From: Bacteroidales bacterium
GTDB taxonomy: Bacteria > Bacteroidota > Bacteroidia > Bacteroidales > VadinHA17
Reading direction: 5' to 3'
Length of the DNA stretch: 7,391 nt
NCBI GenBank assembly: GCA_025455535.1
Contig: JALOMM010000068.1
Coordinates: forward strand, 1 to 7,391
Shown here: positions 71-4,610 of the stretch, in pieces
Position numbering within the stretch: position 1 is the stretch's first letter
How the letters are laid out: every line of letters starts with the position of its first letter
Notes under the pieces: model-generated
Told to the model about the DNA's origin: nothing
Database searches by the model: none
The model's input: the letters and a program-made list of their open reading frames with translations, nothing else
Translations under genes and position numbers: made by a program

Positions 71-191
71 CCCTGCACCTCATTCCCAAATCGCAAATCG
101 CAAATCGCAAGTCCTCCATCCTCCCTGCACCTCAATTCGCAAATCGCCCATCGCAAATCGCAAATCCTCCTGGTCCCTCGCTTCATCCTCC
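71..191. repeat. Duplicated ~48-bp repeat block with CAAATCG heptamers
   Basis: Two copies of a block (71-117 and 123-170), 52 bp apart, each begin CCCTGCACCTCA and end in TCCTCC. Inside each is a period-7 array: CAAATCG three times at 87-107, and ATTCG/CAAATCG/CCCATCG/CAAATCG/CAAATCC across 136-167. Two octamers, GGTCCCTC and GCTTCATC, follow at 172-187. Together with 7-42, nearly all of the non-coding DNA upstream of the helicase promoter is repeat sequence. Open frames crossing it are low-complexity translations of the repeats. Confidence 0.75.
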
Positions 192-1618: not shown

Positions 1619-1640
1619 AAATTTTTTTCATAAAAAATTT
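1619..1640. promoter_or_regulatory. AT-rich palindrome overlapping the -33 element of the padR promoter
   Basis: AAATTTTTT (1619-1627) is an exact inverted repeat of AAAAAATTT (1632-1640) with a 4-bp spacer. Its right arm runs into the TTTG at 1638-1641, the probable -33 element. It could be an upstream promoter element, an operator half, or a weak AT-only terminator for the helicase transcript. An all-AT stem is a poor terminator, so a DNA role is more likely. Confidence 0.4.
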
Positions 1641-1670
1641 GCATTTGTAAATAATAATATTCTATATTTG
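1638..1670 (+). promoter_or_regulatory. Bacteroidota-type promoter of the padR operon
   Basis: TTTG (1638-1641) is separated by 21 bp from an exact -7 box TATATTTG (1663-1670). A second TTTG at 1644-1647 would give a 15-bp spacing, which is too short. Transcription would begin near 1677, leaving a leader of about 23 nt before the ATG at 1700. The surrounding 1619-1697 is strikingly AT-rich compared with the coding DNA on either side. Confidence 0.7.
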
Positions 1671-1671
1671 C

Positions 1672-1694
1672 AATATATAATCTTCTTATATATT
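1672..1694. promoter_or_regulatory. Perfect 9-bp inverted repeat, candidate PadR operator
   Basis: AATATATAA (1672-1680), a 5-bp spacer TCTTC, then TTATATATT (1686-1694) form an exact dyad. It begins 1 bp after the -7 box and ends 5 bp before the padR start codon, so a bound dimer would cover the transcription start. PadR dimers commonly bind AT-rich dyads in their own promoters, so autorepression is a reasonable inference. Confidence 0.55.
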
Positions 1695-1699
1695 TAAAC

Positions 1700-2044
1700 A
1701 TGATTCAGACAGATCTAATAAAAGGTTCCCTCAAAACAGTGGTACTGAAACTGCTGCAGGAGAACGGACGCATGTACGGATACGAGATAACACGCAGGGT
1801 TGAGGAACTCACTTCAGGCAGGATAAAACTTACATACGGCGCCCTCTACCCTGTCCTCCACAAGCTCGAGAACGAAGGCGTACTCGTGACAGAATCGGAG
1901 AATTTCAATAACCGCATCCGCATCTACTACAGCCTTACCGACAAAGGACACTCGGTGGTGGCAGAGAAGATTGAAGAGATGAAGATCTTCATCGAGTCAC
2001 TTCAGAATATCATTAATCCCCAACCGCGGCTCACCAATGCCTGA
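1700..2044 (+). CDS. PadR-family winged-helix transcriptional regulator
   Basis: Small DNA-binding repressor of the PadR family, 114 residues, the length of the short subfamily (PadR-s2, winged helix plus one C-terminal dimerisation helix). Family hallmarks are in order: N-terminal helix (about 3-21), GRMYGYEI (23-30), recognition-helix region YGALYPVLHKLENEGVL (46-62), and the wing with RIYYSLTDKG (74-83). A C-terminal helix (about 84-105) probably dimerises. It is the first gene of an operon; its stop overlaps the start of the next gene by 8 bp (2037-2044), which suggests translational coupling. PadR regulators often control an adjacent membrane protein or transporter, so the two following genes are the likely targets, together with autoregulation through the dyad at 1672-1694. 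The inducing signal is unknown; the C-terminus looks too short for a separate ligand domain. Confidence 0.93.
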   Translation: MIQTDLIKGSLKTVVLKLLQENGRMYGYEITRRVEELTSGRIKLTYGALYPVLHKLENEGVLVTESENFNNRIRIYYSLTDKGHSVVAEKIEEMKIFIESLQNIINPQPRLTNA

Positions 2045-3488
2045 ACTGACGCTGCAAAATATTGACCAGATAAGTCGTGAAGTCAGGCAGCAGGAGATAA
2101 TCTTCTCCCATCTTCCTGATGAGCTTATTGATCACCTCTGCTGTGACGTTGAGCATGAGATGAGTAACGGACTGACCTTCCAGGAAGCCTATCGCAACGT
2201 GAAGGAGAAGATGGCTAGCGGGAGACTCAGGGAGATACAGCAGGAAACACTTTATGCAGTCGACACCAAATACAGAAAAATGAAACAGACTATGAAAATT
2301 TCAGCCATAGCAGGCACGGTCATGCTTGGCTTCGCAGCGCTTTTCAAGATCATGCACTGGCCGGGCGCCGGCATCATGCTGACACTCGGTGGCTTCGCGC
2401 TGGCCTTCGTCTTCATGCCGTCGGCACTGACAGTGCTCTGGAAAGAGACACACAGCAGCAAGCGGCTGTTTCTTTACATCTCAGCCTTCATATCAGGCAT
2501 GCTGTTCATCATCGGAGTTGTATCCAAGGTGCAACACTGGCCGCTGTCAGGACTGATACTCACCTTTGCGGCGCTGAGCGGGATTTTTTTCCTGATACCC
2601 TCGGCTCTCATCGCAAAACTGTCTGGACCGAAGGACCGCCGGAAGATACCGGTTTACATTCTGGGCGCGGCAGGCCTCGTCTTCTATATCCTGGCTATCC
2701 TGTTCAAGATTCAGCACTGGCCGCTGGCATCACTGCTGCTGGCGCTCGGGACAGTCACTGTTTTCCTGGTGGTGTTTCCGTGGTACACATGGCTTACATG
2801 GAAAGACGACAAAAATGTCAGCTCCGAATTCATATTCATGGTGGCGGGATCGCTGGCCCTGGTAATCCCGGCCCTGCTCCTTAACCTCAGCCTGCAGAGA
2901 ACCTACGACACTGGCTATTATATACACCAGCAGGAGCAACAGGCACTTTTCGGATACAACTTCAGGGAGAACCTGTCGCTGATCGATAATGGCACTGGCA
3001 CAGCCGTTTCGCCTCAGCTCGCTGAAATCAATGCCAGGACCAGAGTGCTGCTTAAGGTTATAAACGATACGGAAGCAGAGATGATCGCTATAGCCGAGGA
3101 AAAACGTGGTATCAATGAAGTGATTGCCAGTCATTTCAGCGAGACTGACATCGGTCCGGTTTTACGGTTCAATACCCTGATCTTTCCATTTCATCCCGTC
3201 CCGGCCAGAGACTATCTGCTCAGGGAAGGGTCAGATATGCGGACAGGGCTTGATGCTGCCCTGAAAGAATACGCTGACTACCTGTCCGGACTGCTACCTG
3301 AAAGTGAGGCTGGAAGTTACATGAAGCTACTTGATCCCTCTGTGTACCTGCCTCAGATAAATCCTGAAACAGACAGGGTTTCACTGATGGCCGGACTCCA
3401 TATGCTCGGGCTCATGAAAAACGGCGTCATCACTGTGGAATCGTATGCTCTTTCTGCGATACCGGCACAATCTCAACCACAAAACTAA
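2037..3488 (+). CDS. Polytopic membrane protein: HAAS-like domain, three GldL-like hairpins, GldM-like helix and periplasmic domain
   Basis: 483 residues, no assigned function. Residues about 8-75 form a soluble helical domain (LPDELIDHL, acidic residues, G-x-T-F-x-E-A-Y) resembling the HAAS/permease-prefix domains encoded beside PadR genes. Three transmembrane hairpins follow (about 86-133, 144-193, 204-253), each with the GldL signature K-x-x-H-W-P: K104/HWP 107-109, K164/HWP 167-169, K224/HWP 227-229, exactly 60 residues apart. A seventh helix (about 263-284) runs into LNLS, like the GldM entry LALNVS, and then a periplasmic domain of about 200 residues with the spacing of GldM domain 1. 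The positions matching the essential GldL glutamate are L122, G182 and V242. Seven helices put the N-terminus inside and the C-terminus in the periplasm. The start overlaps padR. I infer a partner of the next gene product in a motor-derived complex; the remote homology is my reading and is untested. Confidence 0.85.
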   Translation: MPELTLQNIDQISREVRQQEIIFSHLPDELIDHLCCDVEHEMSNGLTFQEAYRNVKEKMASGRLREIQQETLYAVDTKYRKMKQTMKISAIAGTVMLGFAALFKIMHWPGAGIMLTLGGFALAFVFMPSALTVLWKETHSSKRLFLYISAFISGMLFIIGVVSKVQHWPLSGLILTFAALSGIFFLIPSALIAKLSGPKDRRKIPVYILGAAGLVFYILAILFKIQHWPLASLLLALGTVTVFLVVFPWYTWLTWKDDKNVSSEFIFMVAGSLALVIPALLLNLSLQRTYDTGYYIHQQEQQALFGYNFRENLSLIDNGTGTAVSPQLAEINARTRVLLKVINDTEAEMIAIAEEKRGINEVIASHFSETDIGPVLRFNTLIFPFHPVPARDYLLREGSDMRTGLDAALKEYADYLSGLLPESEAGSYMKLLDPSVYLPQINPETDRVSLMAGLHMLGLMKNGVITVESYALSAIPAQSQPQN

Positions 3489-3494
3489 AAGACC

Positions 3495-4433
3495 ATGAAA
3501 CAGAAAATATACATCCTCGGCCTGGTGACTATTGCCGTGATCGTCGTTGGCGCACTCCTCAAGACAAATCACTGGCCCGGAGGCGGACAGCTGTTAATTT
3601 TCGGCGTGACGATGCTGCTCTTTGCTTTTCTTCCCCTTGCCCTCAGAAGCCATTACCTGACGGCAGGCAACCGTCAGCACAAGGCGCTCTACATCGTCGG
3701 ATGGCTAACTTGTCTGGTGATGTTCGGCGGGATGCTTTTCAAGGTACTGCACTGGCCGGGGGCAGGCAAGGCATTGCTGGTGGCACTGCCGTTCCCGTAT
3801 GTCGTTTTCCTGCCGGTCTTCCTGGTTGTAACAGGAAAGGATAAAAACTTCAGTATTCATAATACTGTTTCCGTACTGTTCCTCCTGGCTGCCGTATCAA
3901 TCTTCTCCGCCCTGGTTTCGCTTAATGTATCGAAGGAGAAGATCGACGATAGTATGACACTGTCACGCAACTATAACAGGCTGGAGGCAGCGCTTGATGA
4001 TATTCCTGCTGCAGCTGGCCATGTATCGGGCATAAATGTAATCGATGAACTCCTGGGTACTATTGATGACTATCAGCGCAGAATATTCTCCGTTGAGGGC
4101 ATGTCTGAGGAAGAATGGAATAATGAACCATGGAATTTCCCGCGTCCGGAAGCAACATCTATCGCAAACAAAGCCCTGTTCATTGAAGGGAAGAACCCCA
4201 CATATGACACAGGGCTACAGGCCGGGCTGGGTGATCTTGTCAGTGAACTTCAGAAGTCTGCCGCTAATGAAGAGCTTGCCGGCAAAATACCCTTAATCTT
4301 TGACTTCTATGAGACGCCCGATAACAACCTGGTATGGACGCAGGATATGTTTGTTGTATCTCCCCGCGTCTGGTCACTCATCTACCTTGACGCCCTCGAG
4401 ACTAATCTTAAGCTGTTGAGAGCTGGAATGTAA
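3495..4433 (+). CDS. Polytopic membrane protein: two GldL-like hairpins, GldM-like helix and periplasmic domain
   Basis: 312 residues with the same plan as the upstream protein but without its cytoplasmic N-terminal domain. Two GldL-like hairpins (about 5-50 and 64-112) carry K23/HWPG 26-29 and K83/HWPG 86-89, again 60 residues apart. A fifth helix (about 123-143) leads into SLNVSKEKIDDS (142-153), very close to the GldM sequence after its single helix (LALNVS, acidic, helical). The periplasmic part (about 150-312) ends in W281, F286, P290 and a leucine-rich helix, the pattern closing GldM domain 1; GldM domains 2-4 are missing. The GldL glutamate position is L41 and P101. The gene starts 6 bp after the previous stop, so it is co-transcribed. 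It is likely a paralogue and heteromeric partner of the upstream product. Loss of domains 2-4 argues against reaching outer-membrane secretion components as GldM does. Confidence 0.85.
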   Translation: MKQKIYILGLVTIAVIVVGALLKTNHWPGGGQLLIFGVTMLLFAFLPLALRSHYLTAGNRQHKALYIVGWLTCLVMFGGMLFKVLHWPGAGKALLVALPFPYVVFLPVFLVVTGKDKNFSIHNTVSVLFLLAAVSIFSALVSLNVSKEKIDDSMTLSRNYNRLEAALDDIPAAAGHVSGINVIDELLGTIDDYQRRIFSVEGMSEEEWNNEPWNFPRPEATSIANKALFIEGKNPTYDTGLQAGLGDLVSELQKSAANEELAGKIPLIFDFYETPDNNLVWTQDMFVVSPRVWSLIYLDALETNLKLLRAGM

Positions 4434-4540: not shown

Positions 4541-4610
4541 TAATGCCTATTGCCTTTTCCCTTTCCCAATTCGCAAATCGCAAATCGCAAATCGCAAATC
4601 GCAAATACTT
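4541..4610. repeat. Period-7 repeat array (TAATGCC to AATCGCA units)
   Basis: Ten heptamers run in one register without a slip: TAATGCC, TATTGCC, TTTTCCC, TTTCCCA, ATTCGCA, four AATCGCA (4576-4603) and AATACTT. The array ends 10 bp before the methyltransferase stop codon. Unit order matches 1540-1602 and, in part, 136-167. Confidence 0.8.

Follow-up and report, generated by a model that had tools for sequence, protein, structure and literature searches.

Two GldL-GldM-related membrane proteins encoded behind padR in a Bacteroidales genome: a candidate non-rotating sensor

Introduction

When two neighboring genes together encode all five hairpins and both shaft helices of the GldL-GldM (GldLM) motor core, do their products form a motor, or has the scaffold been turned to another use? 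The question is raised by a 7,391-nucleotide stretch of DNA from a Bacteroidales bacterium (GenBank GCA_025455535.1, contig JALOMM010000068.1; hereafter the window), which is contig C36 of a source assembly of 1.73 Mb, 252 contigs and 62% completeness, and in which padR, encoding a PadR-type regulator, is followed by the genes of two membrane proteins, termed here protein 1 and protein 2. The original prediction, made from the sequence of the window, took the pair for a covalent pseudo-5:2 motor core. The reading favored here, probable although far from assured, is a PadR-coupled, non-rotating, GldLM-derived membrane sensor encoded by a three-gene operon that likely represses itself.

Homology to GldL and GldM

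The GldL-type part of protein 1 includes three K-x-x-H-W-P hairpins (KIMHWP at residue 104, KVQHWP at 164 and KIQHWP at 224) and that of protein 2 includes two (KTNHWP at residue 23 and KVLHWP at 83), with seven and five transmembrane (TM) segments, respectively, detected by hydropathy scan. The original prediction had placed two open reading frames at 2037..4433, with 3 + 2 such hairpins, last helices ending in LNLS (protein 1) and SLNVSKE (protein 2) and short linkers before these helices; all of these are present, with three and two stretches matched by the Pfam model GldL_N (PF22827) and linkers of about ten residues. Its term "fused" applies to the joining of a GldL-part to a GldM-part inside each protein, and not to the two proteins, which are encoded by separate genes.

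Profiles of 121 protein-1 and 120 protein-2 sequences were compared by hhalign to profiles built from true GldL and true GldM genes of this order and class. Every one of the five hairpins matches GldL (96.9-98.3%), the C-terminal part of protein 2 matches the TM end and domain 1 of GldM (96.6%, E 6.6e-10), and the C-terminal part of protein 1 matches GldM domain 1 only (91.5%, E 8.7e-07), while the controls (GldM C-terminal domains, GldL tail and swapped pairs) remain below 2%. On this profile evidence, the halves of protein 1 and protein 2 are homologous to GldL and GldM, and the original prediction is borne out on this point, including its periplasmic domains patterned like GldM domain 1.

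Single-sequence searches find GldL_N in protein 1 (51.9 bits) and protein 2 (41.6 bits; cut-off 24), and neither protein of the window is matched by the Pfam model GldM_1st (PF12081). The GldM model matches both proteins in two more distant 3+2 pairs, of genomes G086 and G071 (E 1.1e-19 to 1.2e-10); GldM_1st exceeds its cut-off in L123 and L033, both single-gene relatives, and in protein 1 of locus L130, and stays below it in protein 1 of L118 and in L035. The N-terminal TM helix plus domain 1 of GldM are, in this way, found by profile-profile comparison and directly in relatives. The NCBI equivalog model of GldL (TIGR03513) scores 41.9 and 26 bits for the two proteins, under its cut-off of 68.3. 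The four-domain shaft of GldM, at more than 180 bits to TIGR03517, is not found: the relatives match positions ~12-229 of the 524 of this model, below the cut-off, and the model is not listed for the proteins of the window in the NCBIfam scan.

The motor core structure of GldLM (PDB 6YS8) is cited in the available text of PMC9389320. Proteins 1 and 2 share with GldLM/PorLM: (i) the hairpin family PF22827, (ii) the N-terminal GldM helix and domain 1 (PF12081 in relatives), (iii) a total of five hairpins and two shaft helices and (iv) the K-x-x-H motif. By contrast, the GldL and GldM parts are fused within each protein, GldM domains 2-4 and the R-Q-K start before the TM helix are missing, the genes stand behind padR and not beside gldM, protein 1 has an N-terminal DHxCCDVE domain, and the glutamates corresponding to Glu49 and Glu59 of GldL are lost.

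The true GldL and GldM of the source assembly are encoded on another contig. The GldL of this assembly (L001:1447-2226, G000:C35) adjoins a normal gldM start and is without the TM2 that carries Glu49 (KIQHYPMAGKEEPDW), an in-frame loss that is perhaps an assembly fault.

Loss of the motor glutamates and tethering of the end helices

Glu49 of GldL is strictly conserved and required for motor function, according to the available text of PMC8986121. It is a glutamate in 32 of 32 true GldLs, a set kept from 33 extracted after the source assembly's own, TM2-less protein was dropped, and including three near copies (L178-L180). At the same position in proteins 1 and 2, acidic residues occur in 0 of 121, 121, 121, 118 and 120 rows for hairpins 1-5 in order, and the commonest residues are Leu, Gly, Ile (Val in the window), Leu and Pro. 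The Glu59 position is non-acidic in every row of the alignments of the 121 protein-1 and 120 protein-2 sequences, and only 2 of 25,486 alignment cells are acidic across the 12 TM cores, in which an intramembrane acidic residue for ion transfer, as used by GldL in the 5:2 rotary motor, was not found. In the single-gene relatives described below, 0 of 240 hairpins are acidic at the Glu49 position among the matches listed. The proton path known from GldL thus appears to be lost in proteins 1 and 2. Since no hairpin keeps the glutamate needed by the GldL motor, the two proteins are read as non-rotating, and the motor of the original prediction is not supported, in view of the loss of Glu49 and Glu59 and the near absence of other acids in the TM cores.

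The end helices start about ten residues behind the last hairpin in both proteins. Rotation of a shaft inside a ring is unlikely with linkers this short, and here the original prediction, to which continuous rotation looked impossible because of the tethers, agrees with the finding. In the K-x-x-H motif, Lys and His are retained almost without exception and, thus, the hairpin itself seems to be under constraint.

Constancy of the 3+2 hairpin count

Among 160 loci, 55 distinct protein-1/protein-2 pairs (that of the window included) were distinguished at thresholds of 100 and 60 bits. The 7+5 arrangement of TM segments is observed in 51 of these pairs. Of the four exceptions, L025 lies at a contig edge, L031 (6+5) has no periplasmic domains, L104 has a mis-called start and L113 has a frame break. 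When read at length, L031 (= L191, G097:C82) keeps the 3+2 hairpin motifs and both end helices, one of which terminates in LAVNVS, and has lost both periplasmic domains; thus, the membrane core looks like a unit.

Other forms of the family differ in number. Pairs with 2+2 hairpins occur at L130 and L132 and were counted apart, as pairs below 100 and 60 bits are not among the 55. At nine loci (L123, L181-L185 and L192-L194), padR is followed by one two-hairpin gene with a GldM part, as judged by length or Pfam, and no partner gene lies behind it where the sequence continues (L182 and L192 end within 200 bases). Among the matches listed, two hairpin motifs are found in 120 of 120 homologs of this single-gene form, and GldL_N and GldM_1st are on one chain in 119 of 120. 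Short forms without a periplasmic domain have three motifs (L195) or two (L196) and end there, or two motifs and one more helix (L197).

In a tree of PadR and the N-terminal domain of protein 1 (N-domain), covering 46 of 49 loci after three missed by the gene finder were left out, a branch with 96/95 support separates the 26 loci of the 3+2 type from the other forms. The 3+2 count is retained across deep divergence in these 26 clade members. From the alignments and the tree, the total of five hairpins looks like a trait that evolved once and was then stable in one clade. The original prediction that hairpin totals sum to five is upheld in this clade by the 7+5 pairs; for the wider family, a total that is always five is ruled out by the single-gene form with two hairpins, the 2+2 pairs and the short two- or three-hairpin forms.

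Genome G066 holds two single-gene, two-hairpin paralogs (L185 and L194), each behind its own padR. At L100:964-2355, the C-terminus of protein 1 resembles that of protein 2 (AIETNLKLI), as though the two proteins had been joined by a deletion, and TolC-, HlyD- and ABC-type genes seem to come next.

The padR operon and its putative operator

The genes of the window are, left to right, a DEAD-box helicase, padR, protein 1, protein 2 and, on the opposite strand, a methyltransferase and a glucose/sorbosone dehydrogenase. The 3' end of padR overlaps the start of protein 1 by 8 bases, and six bases separate the stop of protein 1 from the start of protein 2; thus, the three genes look like a single operon. 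A padR gene lies upstream of the protein 1-type gene in 64 of 69 loci (68 named and the window), and the identical 8-base overlap is observed in 46 of the 64.

Promoter-like elements before padR resemble the -33/-7 consensus of Bacteroidales (TTTG and TAnnTTTG). One base behind the TATATTTG box and five bases before padR is a perfect inverted repeat of 9+9 bases, AATATATAA-N5-TTATATATT, that is the probable PadR operator. Of 61 loci (three of 64 had too little upstream sequence and were dropped), 57 have an operator core within one mismatch ahead of padR, whereas 40 shuffles gave 1.65 such loci on average and 5 at most.

In a search of 117 genomes of the family with a stricter pattern, 45 distinct operator-like sites were counted after sites found on both strands were merged by hand, and 35 of them have a protein-1-type gene 304-390 bp downstream; a reversed control pattern gave two sites among the matches listed. 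Of the other ten sites, seven are beside or inside unrelated genes; that of L209 precedes padR at a contig break, that of L210 precedes a gene for a truncated N-domain, and that of L205 is where the contig ends. With 35 of 45 sites before protein-1-type genes, PadR most likely acts through the putative operator to repress its own operon and little else. A wider PadR regulon is not supported by this distribution, in which seven of the other ten sites are at unrelated genes.

Genes behind protein 2 were surveyed in the 46 loci that have this protein and no fewer than 900 bases of sequence beyond it. In 15 of these loci, the next 1,500 bases hold a TolC-type gene, assigned by Pfam on examples, on the same strand; 10 of the 15 also have an HlyD-type gene and 8 an ABC ATPase within reach. 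A fixed target operon is ruled out by the low share of such loci, and the exporter link is a hint that concerns one group of loci only. In the window, the gene behind protein 2 is the methyltransferase on the opposing strand.

The N-terminal domain of protein 1

The N-domain comprises the first 85 residues of protein 1 and is absent from protein 2; its DHxCC signature is found in 118 of 120 protein-1 homologs vs. 0 of 120 protein-2 sequences. The same domain occurs beside PadR on 7-TM proteins without the hairpin motif (L128, L133, L134 and L186) and on longer proteins with further TM segments (L127 and L129) that have at most weak motifs, one GldL-like motif being noted in L127. The six N-domain proteins of L127-L129, L133, L134 and L186 are without recognizable GldM parts, and L127 is from a named strain, Splendidivirga corallicola BMA10. 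The sequence His-x-Cys-Cys-Asp-Val-Glu (protein 1 residues 33-39, window 2133-2153) hardly varies across 21 N-domains carried by different membrane proteins and could serve in metal binding or redox sensing.

HAAS-PadR systems follow a modular pattern in which an N-domain is common to several kinds of TM protein, as described in the available text of PMC11237479 and PMC12419801. Both a stand-alone PadR winged helix-turn-helix gene adjacent to the membrane protein (the window and 64 of 69 loci) and an N-domain common to different TM proteins (L128, L133, L134 and L186) are observed here, and in the systems of PMC11237479, as far as its available text goes, padR is likewise directly before a membrane protein of this kind. 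The differences are that the N-domain of protein 1 has no detectable HAAS sequence match, that two membrane proteins are encoded and not one, and that the TM part is GldLM-derived, while the partners listed in the available text of PMC11237479 are uncharacterized 6TM, 4TM and 2TM proteins. By analogy, the N-domain may be a PadR-linked domain that works in a HAAS-like manner. Its presence on 7-TM proteins without the hairpin motif beside PadR fits a PadR-contacting module better than it fits a membrane effector, and the 85-residue domain and padR, neither of which was assigned a role in the original prediction, point to signaling together with the putative operator.

Features of the locus

The coordinates of the operon and its parts are collected in Table 1. 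Runs of a CAAATCG-type unit occupy three intergenic stretches of the window (88-165, 1566-1595 and 4567-4606) and give rise to spurious short open reading frames.

Table 1. Positions in the window of the padR operon, its upstream elements and the predicted parts of proteins 1 and 2.
Feature	Position	Strand	Evidence
Promoter-like TTTG (1638-1641) and TATATTTG (1663-1670) before padR	1638..1670	+	read directly
Perfect inverted repeat, probable PadR operator	1672..1694	.	1 match in window, 0.01 expected
padR, PadR-type winged-helix regulator, 114 aa	1700..2044	+	PF03551, E 6.7e-19
Protein 1: N-domain, three GldL hairpins, GldM helix, domain 1; 483 aa	2037..3488	+	
Protein 1 N-domain with DHxCCDVE motif; predicted cytoplasmic, predicted PadR partner	2037..2291	+	
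Protein 1 hairpin 1; K104, H107; Leu122 at GldL Glu49 position	2292..2441	+	hhalign to GldL, 98.3%
Protein 1 hairpin 2; K164, H167; Gly182 at GldL Glu49 position	2463..2618	+	hhalign to GldL, 96.9%
Protein 1 hairpin 3; K224, H227; Val242 at GldL Glu49 position	2646..2798	+	hhalign to GldL, 97.1%
Protein 1 GldM-type central helix, ends LNLS	2820..2894	+	position and motif only; hhalign match covers domain 1, not helix
Protein 1 periplasmic domain, GldM domain-1 type	2895..3461	+	hhalign to GldM N-part, 91.5%, E 8.7e-07
Protein 2: two GldL hairpins, GldM helix, domain 1; 312 aa	3495..4433	+	
Protein 2 hairpin 1; K23, H26; Leu41 at GldL Glu49 position	3504..3644	+	hhalign to GldL, 98.1%
Protein 2 hairpin 2; K83, H86; Pro101 at GldL Glu49 position	3681..3830	+	hhalign to GldL, 97.0%
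Protein 2 GldM-type central helix, ends SLNVSKE	3858..3923	+	end aligns with GldM TM end LALNVS (hhalign)
Protein 2 periplasmic domain, GldM domain-1 type	3924..4430	+	hhalign to GldM N-part, 96.6%, E 6.6e-10

Discussion

It can be read from the DNA and its alignments that both proteins are homologous to GldL and GldM, that Glu49 and Glu59 are lost, that the tethers are short, that padR overlaps protein 1 and that the inverted repeat is conserved. A PadR-coupled, non-rotating sensor fits better than a motor. In such a sensor, proteins 1 and 2 would form a 1:1 pseudo-5:2 bundle of five hairpins and two GldM helices, and the periplasmic GldM-type domains, or the membrane core, would sense a condition of the envelope. 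Strain would then pass to the DHxCCDVE domain of protein 1, which is predicted to be cytoplasmic and would hold or free PadR, and PadR would vacate or occupy the inverted repeat at 1672-1694, setting the level of its own operon. In some relatives, PadR may also control a downstream TolC/HlyD/ABC exporter. The full conjunction, that a GldLM 5:2 core was joined into two chains, stripped of the motor glutamates, tied against turning and wired via a new cytoplasmic domain to a PadR repressor, and so became a covalent pseudo-5:2 membrane receptor controlling transcription, is offered tentatively, as a claim that may well fail in one of its parts.

Several observations weigh against the sensor. The periplasmic parts of proteins 1 and 2 barely match each other (1.5% by hhalign), although both match GldM. 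One of the 61 loci scanned for the operator core (L116) is without an operator-like site; the pattern was derived from the same loci, which makes the shuffle test one after the fact and the genome-wide search the more independent of the two; and the few operator-like sites elsewhere mean that PadR may have no regulon outside its own operon. No TolC-type gene comes next in 31 of the 46 loci, which have other genes instead, many on the opposite strand. For the N-domain, comparison to 14 Bacteroidota HAAS segments (10 of which exceed the Pfam cut-off) gives an hhalign probability of 0.5%, HAAS (PF22564) is absent among the Pfam matches listed for the 21 N-domain members (25 of 29 families), and a profile search of the PDB returned no match. 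HAAS is also unmatched in Pfam scans of whole proteins, and the NCBIfam permease-prefix models reach 11-13 bits, under their cut-off of 30. Membership of the N-domain in HAAS is, on all of these searches, not established.

A proton-driven 5:2 motor that makes limited strokes and does not rotate, performing mechanical work on the envelope or on a neighboring exporter, would account for the GldLM core homology, the 3+2:1+1 count, the nearly invariant Lys and His of K-x-x-H and the TolC-type gene that comes next in a third of the surveyed loci (15 of 46); it is improbable, however, given that the Glu49 reported as essential in GldL (available text of PMC8986121) is absent from all five hairpins, as is Glu59, and that the two acidic cells in the TM-core alignments leave no other conserved intramembrane acid. 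Still less probable is that proteins 1 and 2 insert into, or compete with, the true GldL-GldM motor and thereby tune type 9 secretion. The parts could meet, since a full-length GldL_N match is also found in 19 of 20 searched genomes, which were chosen for carrying such proteins or other GldM-type matches, but in the source assembly the true GldL and GldM are on another contig, five hairpins on two chains are already a complete set, and no sign of mixing emerged, although none was looked for.

Other alternatives keep PadR at the center. A PadR-coupled sensor may work without a 1:1 five-hairpin ring, as self-oligomers or in another ratio, five being then an accident of ancestry. The single-gene form with its two hairpins (120 of 120 homologs among the matches listed), the 2+2 pairs and the short forms of L195-L197 agree with this, as does the lack of any GldL_N match beyond the protein itself and the true GldL in six of seven single-gene genomes searched (G049, G051, G066, G073, G076 and G220), the seventh (G041) having one further GldL_N frame of 65 residues. 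The placement of 3+2 on one side of one branch also means that its constancy may reflect descent only. The idea is credible and yet unlikely, as the 3+2 count is maintained over deep divergence in the 26 clade members and the motifs outlast the loss of both periplasmic domains in L191. Somewhat less credible is that proteins 1 and 2 are an effector and not a sensor, that is, a PadR-controlled envelope pair that alters the membrane while PadR answers, e.g., a small molecule. PadR proteins can bind drugs, and an operator found mostly at its own operon would make the operon product a possible output. The Listeria membrane protein Lmo0600 is, moreover, the effector gene of a PadR operon in the available text of PMC6624303. 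Against this stands the N-domain, which is common to differently built membrane proteins beside PadR (L128, L133, L134 and L186).

The PadR-coupled, non-rotating sensor has partial counterparts elsewhere. Zorya ZorA and ZorB are separate subunits, are not known to come with a PadR and differ in this from proteins 1 and 2. Compared by description only, ZorA-ZorB is a 5:2 membrane complex that serves phage defense and not motility (available text of PMC11890865). In Listeria, the PadR proteins LstR and LltR act mainly on their own operons, which include a membrane protein, according to the available text of PMC6624303. The LltR (Lmo0599)-Lmo0600-Lmo0601 operon described there likewise has a self-operon PadR repressor, with genes for a multi-spanning membrane protein and for one more protein behind it; it differs in that these are DUF1700 and DUF4097 proteins with no GldLM parts. 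Literature searches on GldL together with PadR, and on GldL-like and kindred terms, gave nothing related to such a system or such proteins, and those linking GldLM/PorLM with a transcriptional regulator or sensor gave nothing on such a system in the titles and abstract openings.

Significance

The locus adds a PadR-linked family, with an unclassified N-domain, in Bacteroidales and other Bacteroidota, and it ties relatives of GldLM to gene regulation and, at some of the loci, also to exporter genes. If the sensor reading is true, the scaffold of a rotary motor has found a second use as a one-way sensor, and one can ask which parts of the 5:2 complex serve assembly vs. energy. The 3+2 pair may offer a ready 5:2-like complex in which each position can be changed separately. 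Should the joint receptor reading also be true, the 2, 2+2 and 3+2 hairpin forms among the relatives would line up naturally as a series in the build-up of the ring.

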